Part shown: in pieces, positions 4,414-28,143 of the stretch
How the letters are laid out: every line of letters begins with the position of its first letter
Numbering within the stretch: position 1 is the first letter of the stretch
From: a virus
Reading direction: 5' to 3' (one strand)
DNA: 29,820 bases
Virus record (IMG/VR): IMGVR_UViG_3300050821_004691
Coordinates: 1-29,820 of that record
Made by a program: the position numbers and the translations under genes
The notes under the pieces: generated by a model
Database searches by the model: none
What the model was told of the DNA's origin: nothing
What the model saw: the letters and a program-made list of their open reading frames with translations, nothing else

Positions 4414-4592
4414 AACACGTTAAAGTAGTACGCTCTCGTCCGACCTTTAAAACATCCATAGGCGAACTTAACGTCGTACTCTCTCGCCATCGAGATGTAG
4501 TCTTCGAGGTAAGGAAAAATTGGTACGGGTGACAGAACAAGGATTACGACAACCCACGTAAAGTAATACGCTACATGGATTAGATTGATCAT
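4410..4592 (-). CDS. Membrane protein (60 aa)
   Basis: ATG at 4592; stop overlaps the next start. An N-terminal hydrophobic segment (HVAYYFTWVVVILVLSPVPI) is followed by an aromatic, charged tail. It is probably anchored by one helix. The ribosome binding site is weak, so translation probably depends on the upstream frame, which itself is ambiguous (see the 4589-4678 entry). Confidence 0.65.
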   Translation of the reverse strand: MINLIHVAYYFTWVVVILVLSPVPIFPYLEDYISMAREYDVKFAYGCFKGRTRAYYFNVL

Positions 4593-4678
4593 ATCGTTAG
4601 AGCGACAGGAAGAACCAAATGATACCTATCAGTAAGGCTAAAGCGGATAGGACAATCCCTATTACCTAGATAGATCAT
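4589..4678 (-). pseudogene. Short frame, possibly a frameshifted membrane peptide
   Basis: The ATG frame (4678 to 4589, 29 aa, MIYLGNRDCPIRFSLTDRYH...) is not hydrophobic, unlike nearly all its neighbours. The frame one base over (4665-4597) reads VIGIVLSALALLIGIIWFFL and stops four bases before the next gene, a perfect membrane helix with no ATG/GTG/TTG start of its own. A single-base change near CTAGGTAAT would join MIYL to that helix. This is either a real frameshift, an assembly error, or use of a rare ATT start. Confidence 0.4.
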
Positions 4679-4685
4679 CTTATCG

Positions 4686-4763
4686 CTACCAAGGGATAGA
4701 ACGTATGTAGTTGATGAGGGAGAGAAGAACAATCGCGCCTATCAAGACGGAGATACAATACAT
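4686..4763 (-). CDS. Single-helix membrane peptide (25 aa)
   Basis: ATG at 4763 with AAGGAAG about nine bases upstream. The product MYCISVLIGAIVLLSLINYI ends in RSIPW and is almost entirely a membrane helix. Confidence 0.5.
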   Translation of the reverse strand: MYCISVLIGAIVLLSLINYIRSIPW

Positions 4764-4842
4764 TATCGCTACTTCCTTATCGTAGATTTGTCGCTACCAC
4801 ATCAAAACGGTACGCGCGTCTCGCTGTCCGCGTCTTCCTATC

Positions 4843-4977
4843 CTAAATTTTAGGTTCGGGTTTATCTGTCGTCAGTGCCGCCGCGGCGACAAGGATAAAG
4901 CCGACAGCTAGGTAGATGACAACGCCGAAGCCGAAGAAGGTGAAGAGAAAGATTACTCCTATCAGAATCGAAGACAT
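4843..4977 (-). CDS. Small two-helix membrane protein (44 aa)
   Basis: A very strong AAGGAGGAAG ribosome binding site precedes the ATG at 4977. The product is hydrophobic almost throughout (SSILIGVIFLFTFFGFG and VIYLAVGFILVAAAA) and ends in a polar tail (LTTDKPEPKI). It most likely forms a membrane hairpin. About 80 bases follow before the next peptide. Confidence 0.7.
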   Translation of the reverse strand: MSSILIGVIFLFTFFGFGVVIYLAVGFILVAAAALTTDKPEPKI

Positions 4978-5006
4978 GATGATACTTCCTCCTTCTCTTA
5001 CGTTTC

Positions 5007-5246
5007 TTATACAGCCTTATCCTTATCAGCCACTTCTTGTTTGGCGCGGAGAGGAAGTTGTCGGACGATCCACGACAGCGCGAAGGAGAAGATGACCACG
5101 ATCCAAATGTTCAGACCCTGGCTGATCGCGAACAGGAGCATGAAGCACCCGACGATGTACGACAGGGCGGCTTGGATCCCTCTCTCCTTGTAGTGGCAGT
5201 AGGAGAAGTACAACAGGATGGATAGGAGAAGTAGGGCCATGATCAT
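5007..5246 (-). CDS. Membrane protein with three hydrophobic segments (79 aa)
   Basis: The start is the ATG at 5246 (AAGGA seven bases upstream; ATGA overlap with the previous stop). Hydrophobic blocks MALLLLSILLYFSY, ALSYIVGCFMLLFAI and IWIVVIFSFALSWIV are followed by a charged cytoplasmic-type tail rich in Lys/Asp. This is the largest membrane protein in the chain. No family recognised. Confidence 0.75.
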   Translation of the reverse strand: MIMALLLLSILLYFSYCHYKERGIQAALSYIVGCFMLLFAISQGLNIWIVVIFSFALSWIVRQLPLRAKQEVADKDKAV

Positions 5247-5500
5247 TTTGGGTTCCTTGTTCGGTAGTGTCTGGTGGAGATGGGAATCAGGCGGGCCATG
5301 GCGCGGGTACGAATCTTTCCTGTCCGGTGGTAGTCCGCCTTGTGGAGCCGGCACATCAGTTTGATCTTGTCGCCGACCAGAACTCCGATCAGCTCTACGG
5401 CCTGGCAGCGTCTCGCGGGGAGCGAGGTGGTAGGCATGGACCAGTGAACGCACGTGGGCTTACGACCATCATACCTGTTCACGAAGATAGTCATGGTCAC
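5243..5500 (-). CDS. Basic Cys/His-containing protein (83-85 aa)
   Basis: Two starts are possible: GTG at 5500 or ATG at 5494; GAGGTGA lies immediately before the ATG. The product is basic, with Cys in CVHWSMP, RRCQAVEL and LMCRLHKADYH, which could bind metal. It opens the leftward membrane-gene operon. Its ribosome binding site directly abuts a 20-bp imperfect hairpin (5501-5553), suggesting translational control. Confidence 0.7.
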   Translation of the reverse strand: MTMTIFVNRYDGRKPTCVHWSMPTTSLPARRCQAVELIGVLVGDKIKLMCRLHKADYHRTGKIRTRAMARLIPISTRHYRTRNPK

Positions 5501-5553
5501 CTCTGTATGGAAGCTCCAGGCGGGGGTCTGATCCCTGAAGCTCCCGTACAGAG
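5501..5553 (-). promoter_or_regulatory. Leader hairpin abutting the ribosome binding site of the 5243-5500 gene
   Basis: Arms 5501-5520 and 5534-5553 pair over about 20 positions. On the minus-strand RNA there is one C/A mismatch and two G-U pairs, and on the plus strand two A/C mismatches, so the minus RNA folds better. The arm ends in CAGAG, immediately followed by GTGACCATG, so the stem covers part of the ribosome binding site. Confidence 0.5.
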
Positions 5554-5580
5554 GCCCGGCCGTAGATGATACGGCCGGGC
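5554..5580 (-). terminator. Strong GC-rich hairpin after the winged-helix gene
   Basis: Perfect 11-bp stem GCCCGGCCGTA / TACGGCCGGGC with a 5-base loop, 22 bases past the stop of the 5603-5986 gene. No U-tract follows, so it may act as a terminator with help or as an RNA-stabilising end. Confidence 0.6.
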
Positions 5581-5602
5581 TACTGATTCGGCGGGTACTG
5601 AC

Positions 5603-5986
5603 TTAGGCGGTGACGCTCTCGTCCTCGGTCTTGGCCGGAGCCTTGACCACGGGATTGGCGAGGTGCCAAGCCTGTCCTTCCGCGGACTCGTCGAACCGCT
5701 TCTCCGCTTCCGACTTCGCCGCGAGGCGCGTCGCCTCGGGCACCGCGTTGATGGACACGCGGCCCAGCTCGGTCAGCTCGTAGCCGACATCCGCCTTGCT
5801 GACGAGGCCCTTGCCGATCAGCTCCTTGGTCTTCATGTAGAAGGCCGTGGTGGCGGTGTTGGTCTTCGCGCGGCCGATCCCGAAGTACGCGATCCGAAGC
5901 TTCCCGAACTTCACGGGCCCGTTCATCAGGGTCCGCAAGATCACGATCGCTCCGTCCTTCAACGACACCGGTTTCACGTCGCTCAT
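5603..5986 (-). CDS. Winged-helix DNA-binding protein, paralog 1 (127 aa)
   Basis: It starts at the ATG at 5986 with GGAGAC upstream. Residues 10-75 contain GPVKFGKLRIAYFGIGRAKT, NTATTAFYMKTKELIGKGLV and GYELTELGR, a helix-turn-helix followed by a beta wing ending in a T-x-x-G-R segment. Three other genes here share the pattern GP-x3-G-x-LR-x-AYFG...NT-x2-T-x-FY. A charged C-terminal extension with Ala/Glu helices follows. It has its own promoter (copy 2) and terminator, as expected for a regulator. DNA binding is inferred from fold-like pattern only. Confidence 0.75.
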   Translation of the reverse strand: MSDVKPVSLKDGAIVILRTLMNGPVKFGKLRIAYFGIGRAKTNTATTAFYMKTKELIGKGLVSKADVGYELTELGRVSINAVPEATRLAAKSEAEKRFDESAEGQAWHLANPVVKAPAKTEDESVTA

Positions 5987-6066
5987 GGTATGTCTCCTGC
6001 CTTGGATGCAGAGTATCCTACCGCCAAGGACTTATATTTTTGATGGTACTGTTACGTCGATGAATT

Positions 6067-6100
6067 ATTTTACTTAACGACCCCATTCAAATTTGTGAGG
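6067..6100 (-). promoter_or_regulatory. Phage promoter element, copy 2
   Basis: Minus strand CCTCACAAA (6100-6092), 19 bases containing GGTC at positions 10-13, then TAAAAT (6072-6067) followed by AATTCATC. Predicted start near 6060, serving the winged-helix gene that begins at 5986. One base off the perfect -10 of the other copies. Confidence 0.75.
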
Positions 6101-6103
6101 ATA

Positions 6104-6121
6104 GGGCAGACTGATCTACCC
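6104..6121 (-). terminator. Hairpin between the 6139 gene and promoter copy 2
   Basis: Minus-strand RNA GGGUAGA-ucag-UCUGCCC (7 bp with one U-G pair) lies just past the 187-aa gene and directly before promoter copy 2. No U-tract is present; terminator function is positional inference. Confidence 0.4.
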
Positions 6122-6138
6122 GAACAACGGTTCCTATC

Positions 6139-6702
6139 TTACTTGACGTCGTCCTTACCGATGGTCCGCGTCTGGGACTCGAGGGCGATCCGGGCATTCA
6201 TGGCCTCGGTCCTCTTGACCTTCGCCAGCGCCCGGGCCTGTTGAGCCTTAGCGTACCTGGTCTTCAGCGACTCTTCATACGTACCATCGTTGTCCCTGTT
6301 GAGACGGATGACTTGATTCATCCCAGGAACCTTACCTGCGATCCCGGTGATCAGGGTGATGTCATCGTTGACCAACCGGTACATCTCGTCGCGGATCGGA
6401 ATGCCTCCGCCTCCGGTCTTCTCTTCCCTGGTGAAAGGGTTAAGCCATTGACCGAAGTGAGGATCGAGTATCCCGGTGGACACCTCGCACGAGCCCCCGC
6501 TGCTTCGCCCCGGATCATCTTCCTTCCGGGCCTTGGCGTGGGTGAAACAGATCGCCAGGGTGACTTCAACCAGGATCTTCTGGAAGGCCGGTGCGTAAGG
6601 GACGTTGACGTACGCGAAGGCGGGAGACGCCGAGCCCATGTTCCAGCACAGGACGCAGCCAGATCTTGCACGAGGGTTCTTCAATTTGTTACCGCGGATC
6701 AT
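6139..6702 (-). CDS. Hypothetical protein with CxxC...CxxH (187 aa)
   Basis: The ATG at 6702 follows GGAG by eight bases and lies about 22 bases downstream of the predicted start of promoter copy 3. Near the N-terminus CVLCWN and, about 35 residues later, ICFTHAK give a possible zinc site. The middle is Gly/Ser-rich (SSGGSC, KTGGGGIPI) and the C-terminus is a long basic Ala-rich helix. Two tandem promoter copies precede it, so it is probably made in quantity. Not recognised. Confidence 0.75.
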   Translation of the reverse strand: MIRGNKLKNPRARSGCVLCWNMGSASPAFAYVNVPYAPAFQKILVEVTLAICFTHAKARKEDDPGRSSGGSCEVSTGILDPHFGQWLNPFTREEKTGGGGIPIRDEMYRLVNDDITLITGIAGKVPGMNQVIRLNRDNDGTYEESLKTRYAKAQQARALAKVKRTEAMNARIALESQTRTIGKDDVK

Positions 6703-6730
6703 ATAATGGTCTCCGAGTGGTTGATGGATT

Positions 6731-6764
6731 ATTATACTTTATGACCTCTAGATATTTTGTGAGG
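6731..6764 (-). promoter_or_regulatory. Phage promoter element, copy 3
   Basis: Minus strand CCTCACAAA (6764-6756), 19 bases with GGTC at positions 10-13, then TATAAT (6736-6731) and AATCCATC. It drives the 6702 gene with a short leader. Confidence 0.8.
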
Positions 6765-6802
6765 TAAGGACATCTAGGGATCATATAAAGAACCATGGCT
6801 AT

Positions 6803-6836
6803 ATTATAGTCATTGTCCAGTGGTCAATTTGTGAGG
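6803..6836 (-). promoter_or_regulatory. Phage promoter element, copy 4
   Basis: Minus strand CCTCACAAA (6836-6828), 19 bases with GGAC at positions 10-13, then TATAAT (6808-6803). It lies 72 bases upstream of copy 3, forming a tandem pair ahead of the same gene. An ATG at 6796 falls at the predicted start and opens a 35-codon frame that spans copy 3; that frame is not trusted. Confidence 0.8.
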
Positions 6837-6871
6837 AGCGAGCCGAAGGGGTTGGTAAGACTAATGCCTGT

Positions 6872-6889
6872 CCCCTGGGCCCAGTGGGG
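6872..6889 (-). terminator. GC-rich palindrome after the 6890 gene
   Basis: CCCCTGGGCCCAGTGGGG folds on itself with a bulged T. It touches the stop codon of the 74-aa winged-helix gene. It separates that gene from promoter copy 4; no U-tract. Confidence 0.4.
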
Positions 6890-7114
6890 TTAACGGTACT
6901 GCTTACGCCCAATGTCCGTGATCGAATACATTCCCACCATCGTCTTTTGAATCAACTCAGCTTCCATCATACGCTGAAGCTGATTGTAGAACGAAGTGTT
7001 CGACGGGTTCTTACATCTCTCTTCGCCGTAGTAAGCCAAGCGAAGCTGTCCATGAGTCTTAGGTCCTGATGCTAACGCCATCAGGATCTTCATCTTCTCG
7101 TTAGTGACAATCAT
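6890..7114 (-). CDS. Winged-helix DNA-binding protein, paralog 2 (74 aa)
   Basis: The start at 7114 is set by GGAGAGAT upstream; longer readings run into the preceding gene. The product is a minimal version of the family: ASGPKTHGQLRLAYYGEERC, then NTSFYNQLQRMMEAELIQ, a short strand turn and YSITDIGRKQYR. It lacks the C-terminal extensions of paralogs 1 and 3. It follows a zinc-ribbon gene by one base, so the two are probably co-translated. Confidence 0.75.
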   Translation of the reverse strand: MIVTNEKMKILMALASGPKTHGQLRLAYYGEERCKNPSNTSFYNQLQRMMEAELIQKTMVGMYSITDIGRKQYR

Positions 7115-7115
7115 G

Positions 7116-7298
7116 TTATCTCTCCGTGATACAGTCCGTCTCGTTACACGTCGGGCAGTTGTCCTTGTTCTTGCCAAGCTGATCTGCCGTGAGAACGTCG
7201 AAGCATGCGGTGCATAGGTACTCCAACGCCGTCAACGTCTCCTGAGGTACTTCTTCCGACTCTTCAACGAACTCTTCTCCTTCGTTATCTCGATTCAT
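7116..7298 (-). CDS. Acidic zinc-ribbon protein (60 aa)
   Basis: A strong AAGGAGATCAA precedes the ATG at 7298. The N-terminus is very acidic (NEGEEFVEESEE) and is followed by YLCTACFDVL and NCPTCNETDC, a clear two-knuckle C-x2-C...C-x2-C zinc ribbon. Such small ribbons are common in phages as accessory nucleic-acid or polymerase-binding proteins; the role here is unknown. It sits downstream of the structured 7299-7608 region. Confidence 0.75.
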   Translation of the reverse strand: MNRDNEGEEFVEESEEVPQETLTALEYLCTACFDVLTADQLGKNKDNCPTCNETDCITER

Positions 7299-7608
7299 TT
7301 GATCTCCTTGAGACAGACTGCTAGCAACACATCCCGCACCTCTGCTACGTACCGTATTCGCTTATACATCTAACATACGTTAGCTCCCTTTTTGTGACCT
7401 CGTGAGTATGCCTACTACGGTACATCTCAACGTACAACCGCGGTAGGCTTAGCAACCTCCTATGCAGATACCCCTATCCGGGACGTTGCTACCCTTGGTA
7501 GGGCCGACGGGTGCATGTACTGCGGCCCAGTACGTGCATGCTATAGACGTCATAGCAAGACGGCACACCAACCATTTAGATTGATGTGCCGAATGCTACG
7601 GCGTCAGC
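7299..7608 (-). other. Gene-free, hairpin-rich region (possible structured RNA or leader)
   Basis: No credible gene on either strand over 310 bases. The right half holds successive hairpins: GGCACACCAA/TTGATGTGCC (7562-7590), TGCTAT/ATAGCA (7539-7557), TGCATGTACT/AGTACGTGCA (7512-7538), CTACC/GGTAG (7489-7501) and AGCAAC/GTTGCT (7451-7490, competing with the previous one). A palindrome CTAACATACGTTAG (7370-7383) lies near a TATAAG. It may be an untranslated leader for the 7298 gene, a small RNA, or both. Confidence 0.5.
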
Positions 7609-7953
7609 TTAGGCTTGCGGGTGCTCCGCTTCCCACTTCAGCTGCGCTTCCGACTTGATCGCGGACAGGAACGTCATCCACTGATCGCCCTTCTCCTTCT
7701 TGATGAAGGCGAGCATCAGCTCGCCCGCAACGTCGAGGCTGTAAGGCCCCTTCACGACGTCCTGCTTGACCAACTTCTCCACAACAGCCTGCTTCAGCTT
7801 GTTGTAGAACGACGTGTTGGCCGTGTTGCCCTCAGCGCGTCCCTTCCCGAAGTAGGCGATGCGCAAAGCCCCGTGCGTCTTGGGGCCGCTCGCCAACTCC
7901 CGAACGATGATCAGACGGGGATTGGACAGCTTGAGGATTTCCGTGTCGCTCAT
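7609..7953 (-). CDS. Winged-helix DNA-binding protein, paralog 3 (114 aa)
   Basis: ATG at 7953 with GGAG seven bases upstream. The core ASGPKTHGALRIAYFGKGRA, NTANTSFYNKLKQAVVEKLV is nearly identical in places to paralogs 1 and 2. The usual T-x-x-G-R end of the wing is replaced by YSLDVAGELM, and a C-terminal helical extension with several Trp follows. A leader with competing hairpins (7981-8055) lies directly upstream. Confidence 0.75.
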   Translation of the reverse strand: MSDTEILKLSNPRLIIVRELASGPKTHGALRIAYFGKGRAEGNTANTSFYNKLKQAVVEKLVKQDVVKGPYSLDVAGELMLAFIKKEKGDQWMTFLSAIKSEAQLKWEAEHPQA

Positions 7954-8627: not shown

Positions 8628-8776
8628 CATTTCTCCTTGACGTCGAATACGTCTACCGTCATTGCTCCTCTATAGAGAGCAACGCGGACACCATTCTTAA
8701 ACTGTTCAAGCTCTTCCTTGAACCGTTCTTCTTCGCCATCGTTCATCTCAACGCGCAGCAGTATGATCTTGGTCAT
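8627..8776 (-). CDS. Hypothetical acidic protein (49 aa)
   Basis: ATG at 8776 begins inside the previous gene (29-base overlap) and the stop overlaps the next start. The product MTKIILLRVEMNDGEEERFK continues with a charged helix and two strands (VRVALYRGAMTVDVFDV). The ribosome binding site is probably GGAGG at 8781-8785, within the upstream gene. Unknown function. Confidence 0.6.
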   Translation of the reverse strand: MTKIILLRVEMNDGEEERFKEELEQFKNGVRVALYRGAMTVDVFDVKEK

Positions 8777-9029
8777 GTGCCTCCTTCCAGAACTCTAAGC
8801 CTTTCTTTGTAAGAACGTAAACGATGTTGACCGCTCTTCCCGTCGTCGTGTAGTAGTGAGTGCTCACTCTCCTTATGAGCTTCATATCGATTACATAGCT
8901 CATCGCCATGTAGAAAGATATCGTATGATTCTTGTGCGGGAAGAATGCAAAGTACTCTCTACGTATAGTAGAGAAGTTCTTTGGTCCAGCTTTCAACGTA
9001 TCGGTAAAGAAGAATCTCGATGTCTTCAT
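8748..9029 (-). CDS. Winged-helix-like protein, divergent paralog 4 (93 aa)
   Basis: ATG at 9029 with GAGGTGA upstream and an ATGA overlap. The pattern of the family is kept but degenerate: KAGPKNFSTIRREYFAFF, then HTISFYMAMSYVIDMKLIRR, a longer wing with Thr/Tyr (THYYTTTGR) and VYVLTKKGLEFW. The Gly-Leu-Arg core (G-x-LR) is replaced by STIRR. It lies mid-operon, unlike paralogs 1 and 3. Confidence 0.6.
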   Translation of the reverse strand: MKTSRFFFTDTLKAGPKNFSTIRREYFAFFPHKNHTISFYMAMSYVIDMKLIRRVSTHYYTTTGRAVNIVYVLTKKGLEFWKEAHDQDHTAAR

Positions 9030-17952: not shown

Positions 17953-19872
17953 GTGAGCTACGATTTAAAGGCGTTCTACGATAGCGTAGATGAACTAACA
18001 ACTAGGGACAGAGCTATTGCTGTTCAGTATGGTCGCGTACCTGACTCAATGGGTGGCGGATTAGTTCCTCTCAACGTGGATGCGCAGGGACATCTCCTTA
18101 TTGGATCAGGACTTACTCTGAACGTAACGGATATCACTCCCGTTACCTGTGTACAGCCAAATCCCGCGTTGCTGAACGCGACTGTTAACATAGGTCAATT
18201 CGGCGGCACACCTGTCACTATAGGGCAGAAACTTGCCGCTCAATCTATACCGGTTGTTCTCGCGTCCGATCAAACTATCACAGTCGGCGCTATCACCGTG
18301 GGAACGCTTGACGTCACTGTTCCTCCTGTAATAGTGACGGGGAGCATATCATCAGCAGGTCAGACAGTTGTTATTGAATTAGATGGTAGACAAGGGTTAG
18401 CGCTACAGATTGCAGGGACTTGGTCAGGGGTACTTAACGCACAAGTTTCTTCAGACAACGCAGCTACGTGGCGTCAGACTTCTCTACTCGTGGTGATTCC
18501 TGGCGGCTCTCCTATCGAATCTGATGATATATCGGGGAATAACCTTTATCGCATAAACGAGCTCGATGGTATTACTCACGTACAGGTTATTGCGATAAGT
18601 ATGACGTCAGGTACCGCTAGTATAACGTTAACGGCAACGGCGGCACCGTCACACATCGATCGTTCGATAATCTCACTGGATCAGAGTTCACCTACTGTTG
18701 CAGGATTCTCCAGATTGCGTGTAGCCAATCCGTTTGCGCTCTTCGACAGTCAGCATACTTTAGATACGCAGCCCTTGACTTGGGATTCTAATCTCACGCT
18801 AGGAGGTACAGCAGCGTGGTTGCCTAATGAAGCGGCGATGCTCCTCACTATTAGTTCTAGCGCGGGATCGATTAGTCAGAGACGTACAAAGGAGCGATTT
18901 AGATATCAAGCAGGTAAGTCTCAGCAGATCCTCGCGACAGGTGTTTTAGGTACTGCTACTGCTAATGTACTTCAAAAGATTGGGTACTACGACAATTTGA
19001 ACGGCGTTTACTTTCAGCTATCCTCAACGGGATTATCCGTAGTGATGCGCACGAGCACTAGCGGATCGCCTGTAGAATCTGTTGTACCGCAGAGTCAGTG
19101 GAACGTAGACTCTTTTGATGGAACGGGTCCTAGTGGTATAGCAATTGACCCGACGAAGAGTAATATCTTCTTTATGGAGTTAGAGTGGCTGGGTGTTGGT
19201 GCCGTTAGAATGGGTTTCAGTGTCGATGGTATTTTGTACGTTTGTCACGTCTTCGAAAATACTAACGTCATACCTAGTGTTTATATAGGCACAGGTTCGT
19301 TACCTATCACCTACGAAATCCTTGCGACGTCTAACACAGCGGGCGGCATATCTATGAAACAGATATGTACATCCGTCGTTAGTGAAGGTGGCCAGCCATT
19401 AACTCCGCTGTTCTTCACTGCAGGCACAGGTACTACTCCTACGCAGGTTAAGGCAGATGCTAACTACAATATCGTCCTTTTTAGACCTTCGCTGACGTAT
19501 CAGGCGTTCACCAATAATGCACAATTTTATCCTTATGCTTTCGATGTAATTACTACGGGAACTGTGCCTGTTTTCGTTCAGGCGATACTCAATCCCACGA
19601 TTACGGGTTCGCCTGTGTGGACTCCTTACAACACTGGAGTGAGTGGAGCAGAGTACTCGATCACGTCTGGTGTGACGATCACGGGGGGCATGCCTGTCTT
19701 CAGCTTGTACATACAGCCAGGAATAGCGTACCATCGAGATGTTCCTAGTACCACTTTTCCTCTTTCAGTGAGTGGTAACGGAACCGTTCAAAATGTTGTA
19801 GCTTTCGTGGGTACAGGTTTTTCAGATATATCTCCAGTTTACGGAACAGTGAGCTGGAAGGAATTCCACTAA
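17953..19872 (+). CDS. Tail-fibre/baseplate-type structural protein (639 aa)
   Basis: GTG start at 17953 with AAGGGAT upstream. Residues 1-120 carry the VTIGQKLAAQSIPVVLASDQ segment, common at the N-terminus of phage fibre-like proteins and repeated in the next gene. The central part (GFSRLRVANPFALFDSQHTL, then GKSQQILATGVLG, SQWNVDSFDGTGPSGI and FMELEWLGVGAVRMGFSVDG) matches a beta-rich domain I recall from many phage tail or fibre proteins. It probably builds part of the host-contact apparatus. Confidence 0.85.
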   Translation: MSYDLKAFYDSVDELTTRDRAIAVQYGRVPDSMGGGLVPLNVDAQGHLLIGSGLTLNVTDITPVTCVQPNPALLNATVNIGQFGGTPVTIGQKLAAQSIPVVLASDQTITVGAITVGTLDVTVPPVIVTGSISSAGQTVVIELDGRQGLALQIAGTWSGVLNAQVSSDNAATWRQTSLLVVIPGGSPIESDDISGNNLYRINELDGITHVQVIAISMTSGTASITLTATAAPSHIDRSIISLDQSSPTVAGFSRLRVANPFALFDSQHTLDTQPLTWDSNLTLGGTAAWLPNEAAMLLTISSSAGSISQRRTKERFRYQAGKSQQILATGVLGTATANVLQKIGYYDNLNGVYFQLSSTGLSVVMRTSTSGSPVESVVPQSQWNVDSFDGTGPSGIAIDPTKSNIFFMELEWLGVGAVRMGFSVDGILYVCHVFENTNVIPSVYIGTGSLPITYEILATSNTAGGISMKQICTSVVSEGGQPLTPLFFTAGTGTTPTQVKADANYNIVLFRPSLTYQAFTNNAQFYPYAFDVITTGTVPVFVQAILNPTITGSPVWTPYNTGVSGAEYSITSGVTITGGMPVFSLYIQPGIAYHRDVPSTTFPLSVSGNGTVQNVVAFVGTGFSDISPVYGTVSWKEFH

Positions 19873-22800
19873 ATGAATGATATAGCACTGACCAGTTGGA
19901 CTTCTTTTAAAGTATATCTCGCTGAGAAGAGCGGGCTAATCCAGTATGTTCAATTCCCTGCATACTACGAAATCTATTTCTTTGAAGCATCCTTCAGATA
20001 CGTCGTTTCCATCTACATGGATGGCGGTGCTGACCAAGTCGATTTCGAAACCAACTTCAAACCCTCAGCAAATGCTCCTGTCCCTCTACCCGTTACGATC
20101 ACAGGGGATCCCTTCTTCCTTTCCGAAAATATAGCGGAGTGGGGAGGCGTAGCTACGAGTCTAGGACAGAAGGTGTCTGCCTCTTCCGTACCTGTCACCA
20201 TCGCGTCAGATCAACCAGCATTCCAGGTGACGCAGAGCGGTCTCTGGAACATAAATAATATTTCGGGTACTATCAGCTTACCCGCAGGTGCTGCAACGTC
20301 CTCCAAGCAACCCTCGCTAGGGACTGCTGGATCACCTTCCACTGACGTTATTTCGGTCCAAGGAGTCCCGGGCGGAACTGCTATCAACGTTAACGGTTCC
20401 GGATTTACTCAGCCAGTTAGTGGAACAGTTACCGCTAATATCGGCACGACAGGTGGGTTAGCTCTCGATTCATCCGTTTCAGGGTTGTCATTAACGCAGT
20501 CATCCACAACATCATCGCAGCACGGCGTTCTAGATATGGGTGCAGTCACTACCTCTGCGCCGACGTACGTGTCAGGTCAAACTGATCCACTCTCCCTCAA
20601 CACATCCGGAGGTCTACGCGTAGATGGCTCTGGAGTTACTCAGCCAGTTAGCGGTACAGTTACCGCTAATGCGGGTACTGGTACGTTTACTGTTGGTCAA
20701 GCAACTGGAACAAATCTACACGTCGTTGTTGATTCAGGTACCGTCGCAGCGACGCAGACGGGTACGTGGAATATCAACAACATTACAGGAACGGTGTCTC
20801 TCCCTACGGGTGCCGCAACGCAAGCCTCTCAGACTACAGGCAACGCAAGTCTAGCTAGTATAGATAGTAAGTTGACAGACACGGGCGGCGGAGCACTCAA
20901 GGTTGATGGTAGCGCAGTTACTCAGCCAGTTAGCGGCACTATTACAGCTAACGCTGGAACTGGCAACTTTACAGTTGTACAACCGACTGGAACAAATCTA
21001 CACACCGTTGTAGATAACTTCCCAGCTACCCAGCCAGTTAGCGGTACAGTGACGGCTAATGCGGGTACGGGTACATTTACTGTTGGTCAATCAACTGCAG
21101 CTAATCTTAACGCAACCGTTGTCGGATCTGGTAACTTTACAGTCGTACAGCCGTCTGGAGCTAGTCTTCACGTAGACGTTGATAACTTCCCAGCTACCCA
21201 GCCAGTTAGCGGTACAGTGACGGCTAACCAAGGTACATCTCCTTGGGTAACATCTGATCTAGCAGACGGGTCAGTTGCTCCGGGTACTGCTGGTACAAAG
21301 TCGATGCTGGCGGGAGGAGTGTATAACACCGCCACGCCGACGCTCACAAACGGACAGCAGGTCGCGCTACAAACAGATGTTAATGGCAATCTAAAAACGA
21401 CGGCAGTATTATCTGGTTCGACTGTGACAGTCATACAGCCGACCGCTGCGCAATTAAATGCCACTGTTGTTGGATCTGGTAACTTCACAGTCGTACAGCC
21501 GACGGGATCTAATTTACATGTTGACGTTGACAACTTCCCAGCTACCCAGCCAGTTAGCGGTACAGTGACGGCTAACGCTGGCTCTGGTAACTTCCAAGTT
21601 GTTCAACCAACCGGAACTAATTTACATACGGTCGTCGATAGCGGTACCATCACGGTTACCCAAGCAACTGGAACTAATCTTCATACAGTTGTTGATTCAG
21701 GCGCAGTGACAGTCACTAACGTAAATCCCGCCAACTTGAATGCGCTCGTCGCGGGAGCGGTTACTTCCGCAGCGCCATTGTATGTAAATGGAACGGATGC
21801 ATCTCTGTCTCTCAATACTGCAGGTGGTTTGAGAGTAGATGGCTCTGGAGTTACTCAGCCAGTTAGTGGAACGGTTACCGCTAATGCGGGTACTGGTAAC
21901 TTTACTGTTGTACAAGCGACTGGTGCGAACTTACACGTTGATGTAGATAACTTTCCTGCTACGCAGCCAGTTAGCGGAACTGTCACAGCTAACCAAGGTA
22001 CATCTCCTTGGGTTGTCAGTGGTACAGTTACATCCAATATCGGCACTACTGGTGGTCTAGCGTTAGATACTACGGTAGCTGCGCTACAGGTAGCACAGGC
22101 GTCTACAACCGCAGGTGAGAAGGGCACCCTCACGATGGGCGCGGTCACTACGGCTGCTCCTACATACACGACAGGACAAACAGATCCGATATCCTTAACG
22201 ACTGCTGGCGCGCTCCGAGTAGACGGATCAGGTACAACTCAGCCAGTCAGCGGTACTGTTACGGCAAATGCCGGTACGGGAACCTTTACTGTAGGTCAGG
22301 CGACGGGTACCAACCTCCACGTTGTTGTTGATTCAGGTACGACGGTCGTTACTCAACCTACAGCGGCTAACTTGAACGCTACAGTCGTTGGATCTGGTAA
22401 CTTTACTGTTGTACAGCCTACTGGAACTAATCTTCACACGGTAGTTGACTCAGGAACAGTTACGGCTAATATCGGAACTACAAACGGACTAGCGCTAGAT
22501 GCAACCGTAGCGAAACTTACGCTAGCCCAGGCTTCTACTACAGCGGGTGAAACTGGTCCGTTAATTCAAGGCGCCGTTACAACGGCCGCTCCAGCTTACA
22601 CTACTGGCCAAACAGATCCTCTTTCGCTAACGACAGCGGGTAGCCTCCGTGTAGTGGATAACAGTACCGTCGCCCAAGCGTCTACTACATCAGGACAGAC
22701 TGGCGGACTGATTCAGGGTGCTGTTACAACTGCGGCACCATCATACACTACAGGTCAGACAGATCCATTATCGCTTACTACAGCAGGCAGCTTACGCGTA

Positions 22801-23382
22801 ACGGATACTAACGCCGTTGCGCAAGCTTCTACGACCGCCGGAGAGATAGGTCCACTTGTTCAAGGGGCTGTCACTACAGCTGATCCAGCTTATACCACTG
22901 CGCAAACGGATCCTTTATCTCTTACAACGACGGGACGTCTTCGCGTTGATGCAACAGGTAACGTCGCTTCATTGGCCGCAGACTCGGGCAATCCTGTTAA
23001 GGTAGGAGCTGTCTACAACACTACTCCTTCGGCACCTACTACGGGCCAAAGAGTTGATCTCCAGGCAAACCAATTTGGTGCATTATCTATATCCCAGCGT
23101 AACAAGTTTTTGAATATAGCAGGAAATGCGACTACTACGGTAAAGTCTGGCGCAGGGACGCTAAGTTGCGTCACCATCAATAACCCCGGATCCGGAGGAA
23201 CGTGCACGATATATGATAACACAGCAGGAAGCGGTACGATAATTATGACTCTCACGATATCTTCTGGAGGAGTCAACCCCGTCAGTACTGCTCTCTCAAA
23301 TCTAGGGTGTGAGTTTGCTACAGGATTAACCGTTGTCACTGCGGGAAGTGCTGCGAATAATTTCACGTTCTTCTACAGGTAA
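19873..23382 (+). CDS. Giant repetitive tail-fibre/adhesin protein (1169 aa)
   Basis: It starts directly after the previous stop. An N-terminal attachment-like domain (about 115 residues, with DQVDFETNFKPSANAPVPLP and SLGQKVSASSVPVTIASDQP) is followed by about 850 residues of Thr/Val/Gly-rich beta repeats. Nine copies contain TQPVSGT(V/I)TAN, and six of a second unit contain GAVT(T/S)-x-AP...QTDPLSL-x-T-x-G-x-LRV. A unique C-terminal domain (from about KFLNIAGNATTTVKSGAG) has paired Cys and probably forms the tip. The form suggests a trimeric beta-solenoid fibre. Confidence 0.88.
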   Translation: MNDIALTSWTSFKVYLAEKSGLIQYVQFPAYYEIYFFEASFRYVVSIYMDGGADQVDFETNFKPSANAPVPLPVTITGDPFFLSENIAEWGGVATSLGQKVSASSVPVTIASDQPAFQVTQSGLWNINNISGTISLPAGAATSSKQPSLGTAGSPSTDVISVQGVPGGTAINVNGSGFTQPVSGTVTANIGTTGGLALDSSVSGLSLTQSSTTSSQHGVLDMGAVTTSAPTYVSGQTDPLSLNTSGGLRVDGSGVTQPVSGTVTANAGTGTFTVGQATGTNLHVVVDSGTVAATQTGTWNINNITGTVSLPTGAATQASQTTGNASLASIDSKLTDTGGGALKVDGSAVTQPVSGTITANAGTGNFTVVQPTGTNLHTVVDNFPATQPVSGTVTANAGTGTFTVGQSTAANLNATVVGSGNFTVVQPSGASLHVDVDNFPATQPVSGTVTANQGTSPWVTSDLADGSVAPGTAGTKSMLAGGVYNTATPTLTNGQQVALQTDVNGNLKTTAVLSGSTVTVIQPTAAQLNATVVGSGNFTVVQPTGSNLHVDVDNFPATQPVSGTVTANAGSGNFQVVQPTGTNLHTVVDSGTITVTQATGTNLHTVVDSGAVTVTNVNPANLNALVAGAVTSAAPLYVNGTDASLSLNTAGGLRVDGSGVTQPVSGTVTANAGTGNFTVVQATGANLHVDVDNFPATQPVSGTVTANQGTSPWVVSGTVTSNIGTTGGLALDTTVAALQVAQASTTAGEKGTLTMGAVTTAAPTYTTGQTDPISLTTAGALRVDGSGTTQPVSGTVTANAGTGTFTVGQATGTNLHVVVDSGTTVVTQPTAANLNATVVGSGNFTVVQPTGTNLHTVVDSGTVTANIGTTNGLALDATVAKLTLAQASTTAGETGPLIQGAVTTAAPAYTTGQTDPLSLTTAGSLRVVDNSTVAQASTTSGQTGGLIQGAVTTAAPSYTTGQTDPLSLTTAGSLRVTDTNAVAQASTTAGEIGPLVQGAVTTADPAYTTAQTDPLSLTTTGRLRVDATGNVASLAADSGNPVKVGAVYNTTPSAPTTGQRVDLQANQFGALSISQRNKFLNIAGNATTTVKSGAGTLSCVTINNPGSGGTCTIYDNTAGSGTIIMTLTISSGGVNPVSTALSNLGCEFATGLTVVTAGSAANNFTFFYR
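20401..22955 (+). repeat. Coding tandem/interspersed repeats of the fibre gene
   Basis: Nucleotide repeats built around ACTCAGCCAGTTAGCGG(T/A)AC and around CAAACAGATCC(T/A). Copies of the first are often nearly identical while others differ at third positions, so both recent duplication/conversion and older drift are present. Reading frame is kept throughout. Confidence 0.8.
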
Positions 23383-24158: not shown

Positions 24159-24671
24159 ATGAATGATTCAATCATCATCGGCTTTTCCCGTCCATCGAAG
24201 TTATGGCCATTGCCTTTATTTGCATGGGCCATCATGCTTTTTGACTGGAGCAACTTTTCGCACGCGTACATTCGTTTCAGTATGGATGCATACGATCGCG
24301 AAATGGTATTCCAGGCAAGTGGGCTACGTGTTAACTTTATGCCGTGGACAACGTTTCAGACAATGGAAGTTATCGTTCATGAATTTGAAATACCCGTATC
24401 AGCTGAAACGAAGCAAGCAGTTATTCAATATGCTCTCGATGAAGTGGGTACTCCTTATGCTCTTTTGGCGGCATTCGGTATAATACCTGTCAAGATCGCG
24501 GCTTTATTTGGAAAAAAGATTAAGAATCCCATAACGCAGAAGGGAGATTGGTGTTCTGAAGAAGCAGCCATCGTTTTAAAAGATTACGATCAGATACCCT
24601 TCACGGCAGATCAAGTCCGGTGTATGACTCCAACGGATGTGTATAATTATCTCGTGAAGGTATTAGGCTAA
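24159..24671 (+). CDS. Permuted papain-fold (NlpC/P60-like, YiiX-type) peptidase or amidase (170 aa)
   Basis: The start at 24159 is two bases after the previous stop. An N-terminal His in NFSHAYIRFS and a Cys near the C-terminus in KGDWCSEEAAIVL, with EVGTPYALLAAFG between, follow the order of the circularly permuted NlpC/P60 group (His first, Cys later). Such enzymes cut peptides or acyl groups in cell walls or lipids. Its place among fibre genes suggests a virion-borne wall or envelope enzyme, or self-processing of a neighbour; which is not known. Confidence 0.7.
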   Translation: MNDSIIIGFSRPSKLWPLPLFAWAIMLFDWSNFSHAYIRFSMDAYDREMVFQASGLRVNFMPWTTFQTMEVIVHEFEIPVSAETKQAVIQYALDEVGTPYALLAAFGIIPVKIAALFGKKIKNPITQKGDWCSEEAAIVLKDYDQIPFTADQVRCMTPTDVYNYLVKVLG

Positions 24672-24752
24672 TTCAATTTGTCACAAGGATCAATTAGGCA
24701 ACGGAGTCGTCTGTAGTTGATTGGTTCATAAAATAACGCGGAGGTCTCACTT
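24672..24752 (+). promoter_or_regulatory. Leader of the 24753 gene, shared ribosome binding block
   Basis: The end of this leader, AAATAACGCGGAGGTCTCAC, is nearly the same as the leader of the 25909 gene (AAATAACGGAGGTCT). A duplication covering both gene and leader is the simplest explanation. No confident promoter was found. Confidence 0.4.
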
Positions 24753-25814
24753 ATGTCATCTTATAATGGTCAATCGTTGTACAACGGTCTATTCGTTAAG
24801 GCATCATCGGTTCCTGACTTAAACGTAAATTGGTCAGAAGGTCTTTTCACTTCACCAAGTCCTAATGCAAATGGTCCTCTAACTTATGTCCAGAGAGGGT
24901 TAGCGGCTATGGGTAACCCTGGTTCTGGGTTTGAATATGTAGCTATTCTTCAGATCCAGGGAACCGATACAGGCGCAGTAAGTCTTCTTCCTATTCCGGC
25001 GGGACAGGGATCAGCTTTGTTAGCTGCTTCTGCCATCACTAACACCGGTGCTACGCAGATCTTCGGTGATGTTGATATGTCTCCTGCTGGAGCTATCACA
25101 CCCGGAGGTTGGACTGTTCACGGAACAATTCACAACGGAGATGCGCAAGCTGCAACGGTTAAGTCACAGGCGCAGGCGTCTTTCACTGCGAAGCAGTCCC
25201 TTGGGTTAGCTGGTACAGTAATTCCTTCAGTCCTTGATGGACAGACTCTCACTCCTGGAAATTATCGGTTCGCATCGACAGCGGCAACGTTAAACGGAGT
25301 TCTAACGCTTAATGGTGCGGGAACGTATATCATCTACACGGGCAGCACTCTTACCGTAGGAAATACTTCTTCGGCCACCGTGACTCTTTCGGGTGGCGCT
25401 TCTGCCGCTAACGTTTATTGGATCGTTGGATCTTCAGCTACCGTACAGGGTGCAGGAACAGTATTCAATGGAAGTATTACTGCTCAAGCTAGTATCTCGC
25501 AGTCTGGAGCAGCGGGTGGAGTCTATAACGGTTCATGGGCAGCTCTAACGGGTGCGATTACATTCGCATCTGCTACAACTGTTACATCTTCTGCACAGTC
25601 TGGAACTATTCCTCCTGCAGGAACGATCAGCATCAAGTACGGTACACCGGTTGCGGCGGGTTCGGGACTTGCGGTGTATCCATCGCCTGATCCAGATAAC
25701 TTCGTACTCGCAGAGTTGTTTTACCCTGCGGCTGCAATGCAATTCGGAACAACGACGATCACAAACGCAAACATTAGCAATGTTGTTTTAAGCGCAGAGT
25801 TCGGCGGACGTTAA
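24753..25814 (+). CDS. Virion-type protein with inserted DUF3494 ice-binding-like domain (353 aa)
   Basis: Strong GGAGG upstream. Residues 1-80 and 285-353 match the whole of the next gene (shared SEGLF near the start, KYGTPVAAGSGL, NANI-x-N-(V/L)VLSAEFGGR at the end). Between them lies a domain of about 200 residues with DUF3494 hallmarks: SAITNTGATQIFGDVDMSPA, HGTIHNGDA, LTPGNYRFAS, GTYIIYTGSTLT, ANVYWIVGSSATVQGAGTVF and GSITAQASI. That family folds as a beta-helix and binds ice in several microbes, or serves as an adhesin module. There is no signal peptide, as expected for a virion protein. Ice binding itself is not shown. Confidence 0.85.
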   Translation: MSSYNGQSLYNGLFVKASSVPDLNVNWSEGLFTSPSPNANGPLTYVQRGLAAMGNPGSGFEYVAILQIQGTDTGAVSLLPIPAGQGSALLAASAITNTGATQIFGDVDMSPAGAITPGGWTVHGTIHNGDAQAATVKSQAQASFTAKQSLGLAGTVIPSVLDGQTLTPGNYRFASTAATLNGVLTLNGAGTYIIYTGSTLTVGNTSSATVTLSGGASAANVYWIVGSSATVQGAGTVFNGSITAQASISQSGAAGGVYNGSWAALTGAITFASATTVTSSAQSGTIPPAGTISIKYGTPVAAGSGLAVYPSPDPDNFVLAELFYPAAAMQFGTTTITNANISNVVLSAEFGGR

Positions 25815-25832
25815 AAGTAGTTAAAGTAATGT

Positions 25833-25874
25833 CGACGGCGTAAAGATTTGCTAGGCAATCAGGCCAGGCCGTCG
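25833..25874 (+). terminator. Hairpin between the two paralogs
   Basis: CGACGGC (25833-25839) pairs with GCCGTCG (25868-25874), followed by TAAAATAAATG. No T-run; it may be a terminator or an RNA-stability element. Confidence 0.4.
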
Positions 25875-25908
25875 TAAAATAAATGAGTTAAATAACGGAG
25901 GTCTTATT

Positions 25909-26319
25909 ATGCTATATCACGGTCTATATGTTAGATCAACGTCGTCAGCGTCGTTACCTGCAGTTGCTCCGGATGACTTAAATGCAAACGTTTCAGAGGG
26001 CCTTTTCTCTGACCCGAACGCAATCGGAGCAGGTCCTATGGTTTATGTTCCGCCTACAGCTCTTCTTATGGCTGTAACAGGGGTAGGTCTTGAGAATGTC
26101 GCTATCGCTCAGATCAGCCTTACTGGGACACTAAGCCTTAAGTATGGTACGCCAGTAGCAGCAGGTTCTGGCTTATCCGCGTATCCCGCGCCGGATACTA
26201 ATAACTTCTTGCTAGCGGAATTGTTTACCCCTGCGGTGCCTCTTACTCACACGACCACAATGGTTACAAATGCTAACATCAACAACTTAGTACTTAGCGC
26301 AGAGTTCGGCGGACGCTAA
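25909..26319 (+). CDS. Decoration-like virion protein, paralog without insert (136 aa)
   Basis: ATG at 25909 after GGAGG. Small beta-rich product (LNANVSEGLFSDPNAIGAGP, LKYGTPVAAGSGLSAYPAPD, NANINNLVLSAEFGGR). It equals the flanks of the preceding gene joined together, with the DUF3494 segment absent between QISLTG and TLSLKYG. Abundant beta-rich proteins near the terminase/portal cluster are often capsid decoration or head-surface proteins; this is inference. Confidence 0.82.
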   Translation: MLYHGLYVRSTSSASLPAVAPDDLNANVSEGLFSDPNAIGAGPMVYVPPTALLMAVTGVGLENVAIAQISLTGTLSLKYGTPVAAGSGLSAYPAPDTNNFLLAELFTPAVPLTHTTTMVTNANINNLVLSAEFGGR

Positions 26320-26547: not shown

Positions 26548-28143
26548 GTGGATAAGATTCAGCAAGAAGTTTGGCGCCAGCTACTTGCAAAGGCGACGGA
26601 ATTTACTCTGCAGGTGAACGATCCTGTTCGCTGGGCGAAAAATTTCTTGAACGTAGAGCTAGAGAGTAACCAAGAAGAGATCATCCGAGAGCTCTGCGAT
26701 CCTAGAGTTAATTACTTAGGTATTCTCGGTGCACGTGGTTCTGGAAAAACATTTGCTGTCTCTATCGGACTAGTTAAGATGTGCGAAGATAATCCTGGGC
26801 TCGACGTAGGAGTCTTCGGTCCTAGAGCTGATCAGGCTACTAGAATCATCGGTGAGACGAAGAAGATGTTGTATACTTCTCCGCTCAAGGATCAGATCGA
26901 TTGGGATCGTACGACGAACGATAAGATCATTTTCAAAAATGGGTCGAGTATGTTGGCTCTATCCGCTGCCGAAACGTCCTTACAGGAAGGTTGGCACTTC
27001 TCTGTCGTAGTCGTCGACGAAGCTCACCGCGTGTCTAATGCGTCTATGTCTGAACGTATTATTCCGATGCTAGGTTCTAAGAAGATTGCCAAACTGATTA
27101 AGATTGGTATTCCTCTCTTTAAGAATCACTTCTATGCAAGTTACTCCGACGATAAGTACATCTTTCTAGTACATGATTGGGCACATGCTCCTATTCTTCT
27201 AAAGCCGGGTTATAAAGAATTACAAGTTGAGGAGGAAAGCAAGGAGTGGGTCACTAGACAGTTTCCTTCTCTGGTACTTGATCGTATGCCGAAGGCGCTC
27301 AAGGCGTCGATGTTCCCCAAGAATCCGGAAATCCATTATGACGGTGATATGACCGAAATGGAATTTAATACACAATATGGAATGGTATGGATGGATGATA
27401 TCAATACCTTCCTGCGTGGTGAAGAGCCCGAGATACTTGTAGGTACCCACGAGCCTTTGATGATGGCACGTCCCGGGGAACACTACTTCTTCGGATTAGA
27501 TACAAGTTCAGGTACTTTAACTCCTGGCAAATACGATTTAGACTATACTGCTTTAACTATCTGGCGCAATAGTGGTATGGGTGTTAAAGAAAGAGTATGG
27601 TCACGTGAGTGGCAAAGTGTTGAGACACTTGCGATGGCGGAAGAGATCGCAGGAATTGTTCATCCCCAAACTGGATTATTCCCTTGCGACTTTGGTTGTG
27701 TCGACTATAGTAATGCAGGTATTACGTCCGTGGAAATGTTTAAACGGTTAAAGATTCCCGTGGCTGGTGTAATATTTGCAACGACTGACCCAACGTCACA
27801 TAAGAATTATAAGAACGCAATGGCGAATCAGTTTCAATTCGAATTGCAAGCCGGTCGTGTTAAGTACCCAAGGATGGAATTCATCGATAGGGACAAAATT
27901 ATGCGTAAACACTACCACCAGTGGTTAGCGCTCGAAAGAAATGTGAGCGTTGGTATTAATGATAAGATTGCAGCTCCTCCTGGGCTGCACGACGACGGCT
28001 GTATGGCAGATCTCCTAGCTGTATGGGCTATCGATAAAAACTCCACTTTCAAGAAAGTACATTCTACTTACCGTATTGGCGTTGCATCCACTAATACGAG
28101 CATTGTACAGAAGCGTCCAGGCGGGCAGAAACGCTTCCTATAA
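26548..28143 (+). CDS. terL: Terminase large subunit (531 aa)
   Basis: GTG start at 26548 after GGAAGAAAG. The ATPase half has Walker A GARGSGKT (about residues 61-68) and Walker B VVVVDEAHR (about 151-159). The nuclease half has the RNase H-like acidic sites FGLDTSSG, the CDFGCVDYSN loop and LHDDGCMADLLAVW. Length is normal for TerL. It translocates genome DNA into the prohead through the portal and cuts it; the portal is encoded two genes on. No small terminase gene was identified nearby. Confidence 0.95.
   Translation: MDKIQQEVWRQLLAKATEFTLQVNDPVRWAKNFLNVELESNQEEIIRELCDPRVNYLGILGARGSGKTFAVSIGLVKMCEDNPGLDVGVFGPRADQATRIIGETKKMLYTSPLKDQIDWDRTTNDKIIFKNGSSMLALSAAETSLQEGWHFSVVVVDEAHRVSNASMSERIIPMLGSKKIAKLIKIGIPLFKNHFYASYSDDKYIFLVHDWAHAPILLKPGYKELQVEEESKEWVTRQFPSLVLDRMPKALKASMFPKNPEIHYDGDMTEMEFNTQYGMVWMDDINTFLRGEEPEILVGTHEPLMMARPGEHYFFGLDTSSGTLTPGKYDLDYTALTIWRNSGMGVKERVWSREWQSVETLAMAEEIAGIVHPQTGLFPCDFGCVDYSNAGITSVEMFKRLKIPVAGVIFATTDPTSHKNYKNAMANQFQFELQAGRVKYPRMEFIDRDKIMRKHYHQWLALERNVSVGINDKIAAPPGLHDDGCMADLLAVWAIDKNSTFKKVHSTYRIGVASTNTSIVQKRPGGQKRFL

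Follow-up and report, generated by a model that had tools for sequence, protein, structure and literature searches.

Why would a virus carry a domain known from ice-binding proteins in the middle of a small gene and keep, right next to it, a copy of the same gene that has no such domain? This question is raised by positions 24753-26319 of a stretch of 29,820 bases from IMG/VR record IMGVR_UViG_3300050821_004691, the whole of which we call the window. The answer that we favor, at a probability of roughly 0.8, is that the first gene encodes a virion-module protein of 353 amino acids (aa) into which an intact DUF3494 has been inserted as a display domain, and that this domain binds surfaces weakly and belongs to a mobile lineage.

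The initial annotation described two adjacent open reading frames (ORFs) with common leaders, N-termini, and C-termini, the first having about 200 additional residues, and alignment bears out this description. The 353-aa ORF lies at 24753..25814 on the + strand and its 136-aa paralog, which lacks the domain, at 25909..26319 (+). A leader with a GGAGG ribosome-binding site (24731..24752, +) precedes the former, and the leaders of the two copies (AAATAACGCGGAGGTCTCACTTATG and AAATAACGGAGGTCTTATTATG, respectively) are similar. The N-terminal flank (residues 1-69; 24753..24959, +) is 47% identical to the paralog over ~62 columns (BLASTP E 6e-13), and the C-terminal flank (residues 288-353, PAGTISIKYGTPVAAGSGL...LSAEFGGR; 25614..25811, +) is 68% identical over 66 columns (BLASTP E 2e-29). 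The segment between them that is missing from the paralog comprises 218 aa (residues 70-287; 24960..25613, +). Its placement between the flanks was correct as first described, and only the exact junction residues needed amendment, to ...QI(Q/S) on the N side and (A)GT(I/L)S(I/L)KYG on the C side. The flanks of the 353-aa ORF match no Pfam or PHROG family and were modeled by AlphaFold2 at pLDDT <50; scans for wider relatives of the 136-aa flank returned only one other viral contig, L002 (IMGVR_UViG_3300014501_000982).

The assignment of the insert to DUF3494 is confirmed by profile and by fold. The profile of Pfam family PF11999 (208 positions) aligns almost end to end, at 2-206, with residues 90-275; the match has E 1.3e-25 and 90.8 bits, the curated Pfam cut-off being 28.7 bits, and an independent genome-side search gave E 1.3e-27. 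The AlphaFold2 model, for which the input was 58 sequences, has at residues 86-283 (25008..25601, +) the discontinuous beta-solenoid of this fold (strands 87-278) with a single long bracing alpha helix (131-152), with pLDDT mostly >90. A Foldseek search of the PDB yielded 31 significant matches, every one of them an ice-binding or antifreeze protein, and VIA-align gave Z-scores of 26-29.6 against 25 ice-binding protein structures, the highest at 1.6 Å rmsd over 195 residues. The whole domain is shared with the type 1 ice-binding proteins (7bwx, 6eio, FfIBP 4nu2, and SfIBP_1 6bg8), including the solenoid, the bracing helix, and an Ala/Ser/Thr-rich b-face. A PHROG search with the 353-aa protein or the inserted domain itself produced no match.

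DUF3494 is common among bacterial genomes, and one must ask whether the fusion is a chimeric assembly or mis-binned bacterial DNA. The reading frame, however, is open along the full fusion, and the independent contig L002 contains a fused gene (6001-7170; its product is 61% identical to the 353-aa protein), a domain-free paralog (7264-7701), and a terminase gene, in the same order as in the window; many further DUF3494 fusions occur in other contigs. An assembly error was ruled out for the fusion by the recurrence of the whole arrangement in L002, and an artefactual origin of either kind can be dismissed with near certainty. This contig provided the only orthologue found for the 353-aa ORF.

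The pair in L002 also bears on the origin of the pair in the window. Between the two viruses, the N-flanks are 63% identical A-to-A and 61% B-to-B, as compared with 44-59% A-to-B, so the duplication predates the split of the window virus and L002. The C-flanks leave this A/B pairing ambiguous, perhaps through gene conversion. The initial annotation proposed the duplication of a decoration-like gene followed by insertion of the domain. The duplication stands, given the paralog pair in both viruses; the order is plausible as the simplest one, the alternative being loss of the domain from one copy, and "decoration-like" is best kept as a putative label for the flanks of the 136-aa and 353-aa proteins.

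What kind of protein, then, received the domain? Upstream of the pair there is a 639-aa virion structural protein of the cyanophage/HMO-2011 type (17953..19872, +; phrog_1645, E 3.7e-81), and downstream there is the 531-aa large subunit of terminase (26548..28143, +; phrog_2, E 4.4e-26; tblastn), so the pair sits in a structural/packaging module. Cyanophage S-RIM32, too, encodes relatives of both proteins near each other, that of the phrog_1645 protein just upstream of the terminase. The term "virion-type," which was applied to the pair at the outset, is upheld by location and by the presence of the same domain in recognized virion proteins elsewhere; for the 353-aa ORF itself, we infer from these that the product is on the virion and displayed outward.

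Some other features of this neighborhood deserve mention. The nearest named relative of the terminase is gp1 of Bacillus phage G (30% identity over 89%), a phage of 497 kb, and on this ground the window could be one piece of a large phage genome. At 19873-23382 the window encodes a 1169-aa fiber-like protein with degenerate repeats (QPVSGTVTAN..., ...NLHVDVDNFPATQ), and in the corresponding place L002 has a different protein, of 461 aa (4525-5910). A 170-aa protein at 24159-24671 weakly resembles the C92 permuted papain-like amidase family and phrog_1128 (1.2e-8).

Viral contigs with PF11999 have been reported previously: three such genes in Arctic viral contigs were proposed as possible host cryoprotection genes (PMC11515562). 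Applied to the window, this proposal would make the 353-aa ORF an auxiliary gene that protects the infected cell against cold. By simple hydropathy rather than a signal-peptide predictor, an N-terminal hydrophobic stretch is present in 79 of 96 bacterial DUF3494 proteins versus 7 of 39 phage proteins. The cellular proteins sampled mostly have this leader, whereas the 353-aa protein (maximum mean hydropathy 0.83) has none and carries its domain internally; it thus lacks what marks a secreted or surface-anchored ice-binding protein. Since most of the phage proteins have no such stretch, the product is probably synthesized in the cytoplasm and released when the cell lyses, in the manner of virion parts. 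The domain is, moreover, fused within the flanks of a protein encoded near packaging genes, and its relatives are found inside tail sheath and baseplate proteins, that is, parts of the particle. A cryoprotective role for the host is for these reasons very improbable. The same publication names Synechococcus phage S-SKS1 as carrying PF11999 homologues (PMC11515562); the S-SKS1 genome gave no PF11999 match at E 0.001, but neither did any control genome, so this negative falls short of proof. Both data sets place PF11999 in viral contigs, but here the domain is within particle-type proteins. This suggests that the products of viral PF11999 genes are, in some cases at least, parts of the particle, and it calls into question the reading of such genes as host cryoprotection genes.

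The relatives just mentioned come from a domain profile search in which 39 IMG/VR contigs were found to encode DUF3494, mostly as part of a larger protein; the set takes in 7 contigs of an earlier search, and all viral loci are metagenomic contigs. As expected of a display domain, it has been inserted into or fused to proteins of the tail sheath, Baseplate_J proteins, head-region proteins, and small proteins of the particle module. The sheath is represented by a protein of contig L018 that matches phrog_279 (E 9.8e-35) and whose C-terminal half matches the Mx1 sheath; sheath homologues with the domain occur in nine contigs. Relatives of baseplate J with the domain occur in six, among them a 2,580-aa protein in L005 (Baseplate_J PF04865, E 3.5e-16; phrog_6, 5.7e-30). 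Its DUF3494 stretch (~1250-1677) is absent from the Mx1 baseplate J, in which the flanks meet within 25 aa.

The flank-insert-flank layout recurs not only in L002 but also in L017. There, a 451-aa DUF3494 protein encoded downstream of a major-head-like gene is preceded by a 220-aa protein that lacks the domain and is 60-68% identical to it in the flanks, a repetition of the situation of the window in an unrelated protein. The same carrier is encoded in L019 with portal and head genes upstream. In L033 the domain is joined to the front of a duplicate of the gene before it. Contigs L037-L044 encode DUF3494 proteins of ~400 aa, and in the three tested (L037, L041, and L043) the ends resemble the neighboring gene, weakly in places.

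A single phage may use the domain several times. The 85.6-kb contig L004 (IMGVR_UViG_3300044824_000100) has five PF11999 matches in three structural genes (DUF3494 regions 50822-51604, 70849-71409, and 78858-80048), which encode a sheath, a baseplate J, and a ~1500-aa protein with two copies. With L003, L005, and L021, in which at least the sheath and a baseplate protein carry it, this makes four phages with DUF3494 in both places. That some tails are coated in ice- or surface-binding solenoids, with the mobile lineage occupying many virion proteins at once as an adhesion coat, seems to us somewhat better than an even bet.

Three further sets of matches should be noted. A 105-kb viral contig has two adjacent genes, each with DUF3494 near the N-terminus (L030:4913-6897). 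The viral-labeled locus L020:876-1982, with a weak pAdhesive_15 match, could be DNA of a host or have been acquired recently; since the first of the trees described below puts its domain among Bacteroidota copies, it was left out of the named carriers. Low-scoring DUF3494-like BLAST matches in other large phage proteins were set aside as composition-driven. Three DUF3494 queries run by tblastn against isolate phages gave nothing, a weak result as the low-complexity filter was on.

How can one domain be accommodated in so many proteins? The sheath copies are instructive, as they are circularly permuted: profile positions ~25-45 to 200 come first and 2-41 follow, which places the helix and main solenoid first and the N-terminal coils last. 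This order is seen at L018:4180-4944 and in homologues in L010, L014, L016, L021, L027, L131, L133, L135, and L138. AlphaFold2 modeled it with pLDDT ~91-97 for the helix and main solenoid and ~79-86 for the transplanted coils, and sequential Foldseek with a permuted domain aligned mostly ~140 residues, as expected. In the published map of the fold (PMC12337378), the first strands occupy row two as counted from the top, and the last strands row six as counted from the bottom. This face-and-row map together with the permuted relatives suggests that the first and last coils stack and that the termini are close together, which would allow both insertion into a loop without breakage of the carrier and circular permutation. 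The natural permutation on the sheath may also inform how whole domains move between virion proteins.

The descent of the domain was examined in two trees, for which the cellular set is a sample (the best 80 of 148 loci, obtained with one pattern). The first tree comprised 118 domains, 28 viral and 90 from cellular contigs. The domain of the window paired with that of L002 (100/99), within a virus-only clade of ten rows (98/88) made up of copies from small proteins, sheaths, post-head proteins, baseplates, and L015. In the second tree, with more viral copies and with the sheath domains restored to normal order for alignment, a 24-row virus-only clade (96/82) united six carrier types, including that of the window, and this fits one phage lineage that moved between carriers. 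Other viral copies were placed in different parts of the tree, which makes a single entry of DUF3494 into viruses improbable. The virus clade could break up under fuller cellular sampling.

With the location and lineage of the domain in view, its role may be considered. Under the display reading, the domain would sit between the halves of a small particle protein while an unmodified copy is supplied from next door; its adjoining termini would let it be dropped whole into a loop of a carrier, and one lineage could in this way be reused on tail sheath, baseplate wedge, fiber-like, and post-capsid proteins. Many displayed copies, each with a flat face rich in Ala/Ser/Thr, would give weak multivalent attachment to a surface, for which the host envelope, extracellular polysaccharide, ice, and mineral are candidates, and such attachment might keep phages near their hosts. 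The binding of surfaces in this proposal is, like the display itself, inferred.

Ice binding as the selected function, by which particles would be held at ice-water or brine interfaces or protected in freeze-thaw, is a special case of display. Every one of the nearest solved structures is an ice-binding protein, the b-face has an outward A/S/T-x-T ladder (AIT 94-96, AIT 114-116, TLT 199-201, and AIT 268-270), and only 7 residues in 200 of the domain are D, E, K, or R; comparable residue columns have been named putative ice-binding sites (PMC12337378). The ladder is nevertheless common to most DUF3494 sequences examined, and substrate binding or adhesion has been described for other members of the family (PMC12337378), which leaves the ladder compatible with ice and not diagnostic. 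A literature search by dataset number, aimed at the habitats of the contigs, found no paper. We consider ice as the selected ligand a tentative idea, on the doubtful side.

One may also suppose that the domain has no ligand and is a passive spacer that adds size and is tolerated through its adjacent termini. The many unrelated insertion places, even of a permuted form, indicate that a stable, self-contained fold could suffice, and the paralog without the domain is retained. The domain has, however, been kept time and again in different carriers and at several sites in one phage, and its flat Ala/Ser/Thr face is conserved. These facts speak against a mere filler, and we think this explanation unlikely, although a good deal less so than host cryoprotection. 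We therefore keep to weak surface binding by a displayed domain.

Ig-like and other adhesive domains displayed on the structural proteins of tailed phages are a known class, with a recent example from gut phages (PMC13370021). Domains of this class are portable, occur inserted in or fused to unrelated virion proteins, and are proposed to bind weakly and multivalently, much as we propose for DUF3494. In contrast to them, DUF3494 has an unrelated fold, the beta-solenoid, and is inserted internally; on the tail sheath it is, in addition, circularly permuted. The fold is also found in proteins of Hyperionvirus (BFVD A0A3G5A745, A0A3G5ACG7, and A0A3G5AEI1), which is a giant virus of eukaryotes, unlike the phage of the window; Foldseek significantly matched giant-virus DUF3494 only and no phage entry in BFVD. 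The impression, voiced early, that display of DUF3494 on phage particles is little described agrees with a literature search for ice-binding domains on phage tails, sheaths, or particles, in which no description was found.

Phages appear to reuse DUF3494 as a surface-display module across unrelated particle proteins, and the pattern is wider than the single insertion first noted: the carriers are many, their domains unite in one virus clade, a phage may have several of them, and the fold also occurs permuted. A well-studied "ice-binding" domain would thereby have a new role as a reusable module of tailed phages, and the proteins given here offer concrete material for testing whether phage particles bind to ice or to other surfaces.

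Elsewhere in the window, small ORFs on the minus strand (5603-5986, 6890-7177, 7609-7953, and 8748-9029) have a motif like GPK(T/F)HGxLRxAYxG and are apparently a small multigene family.
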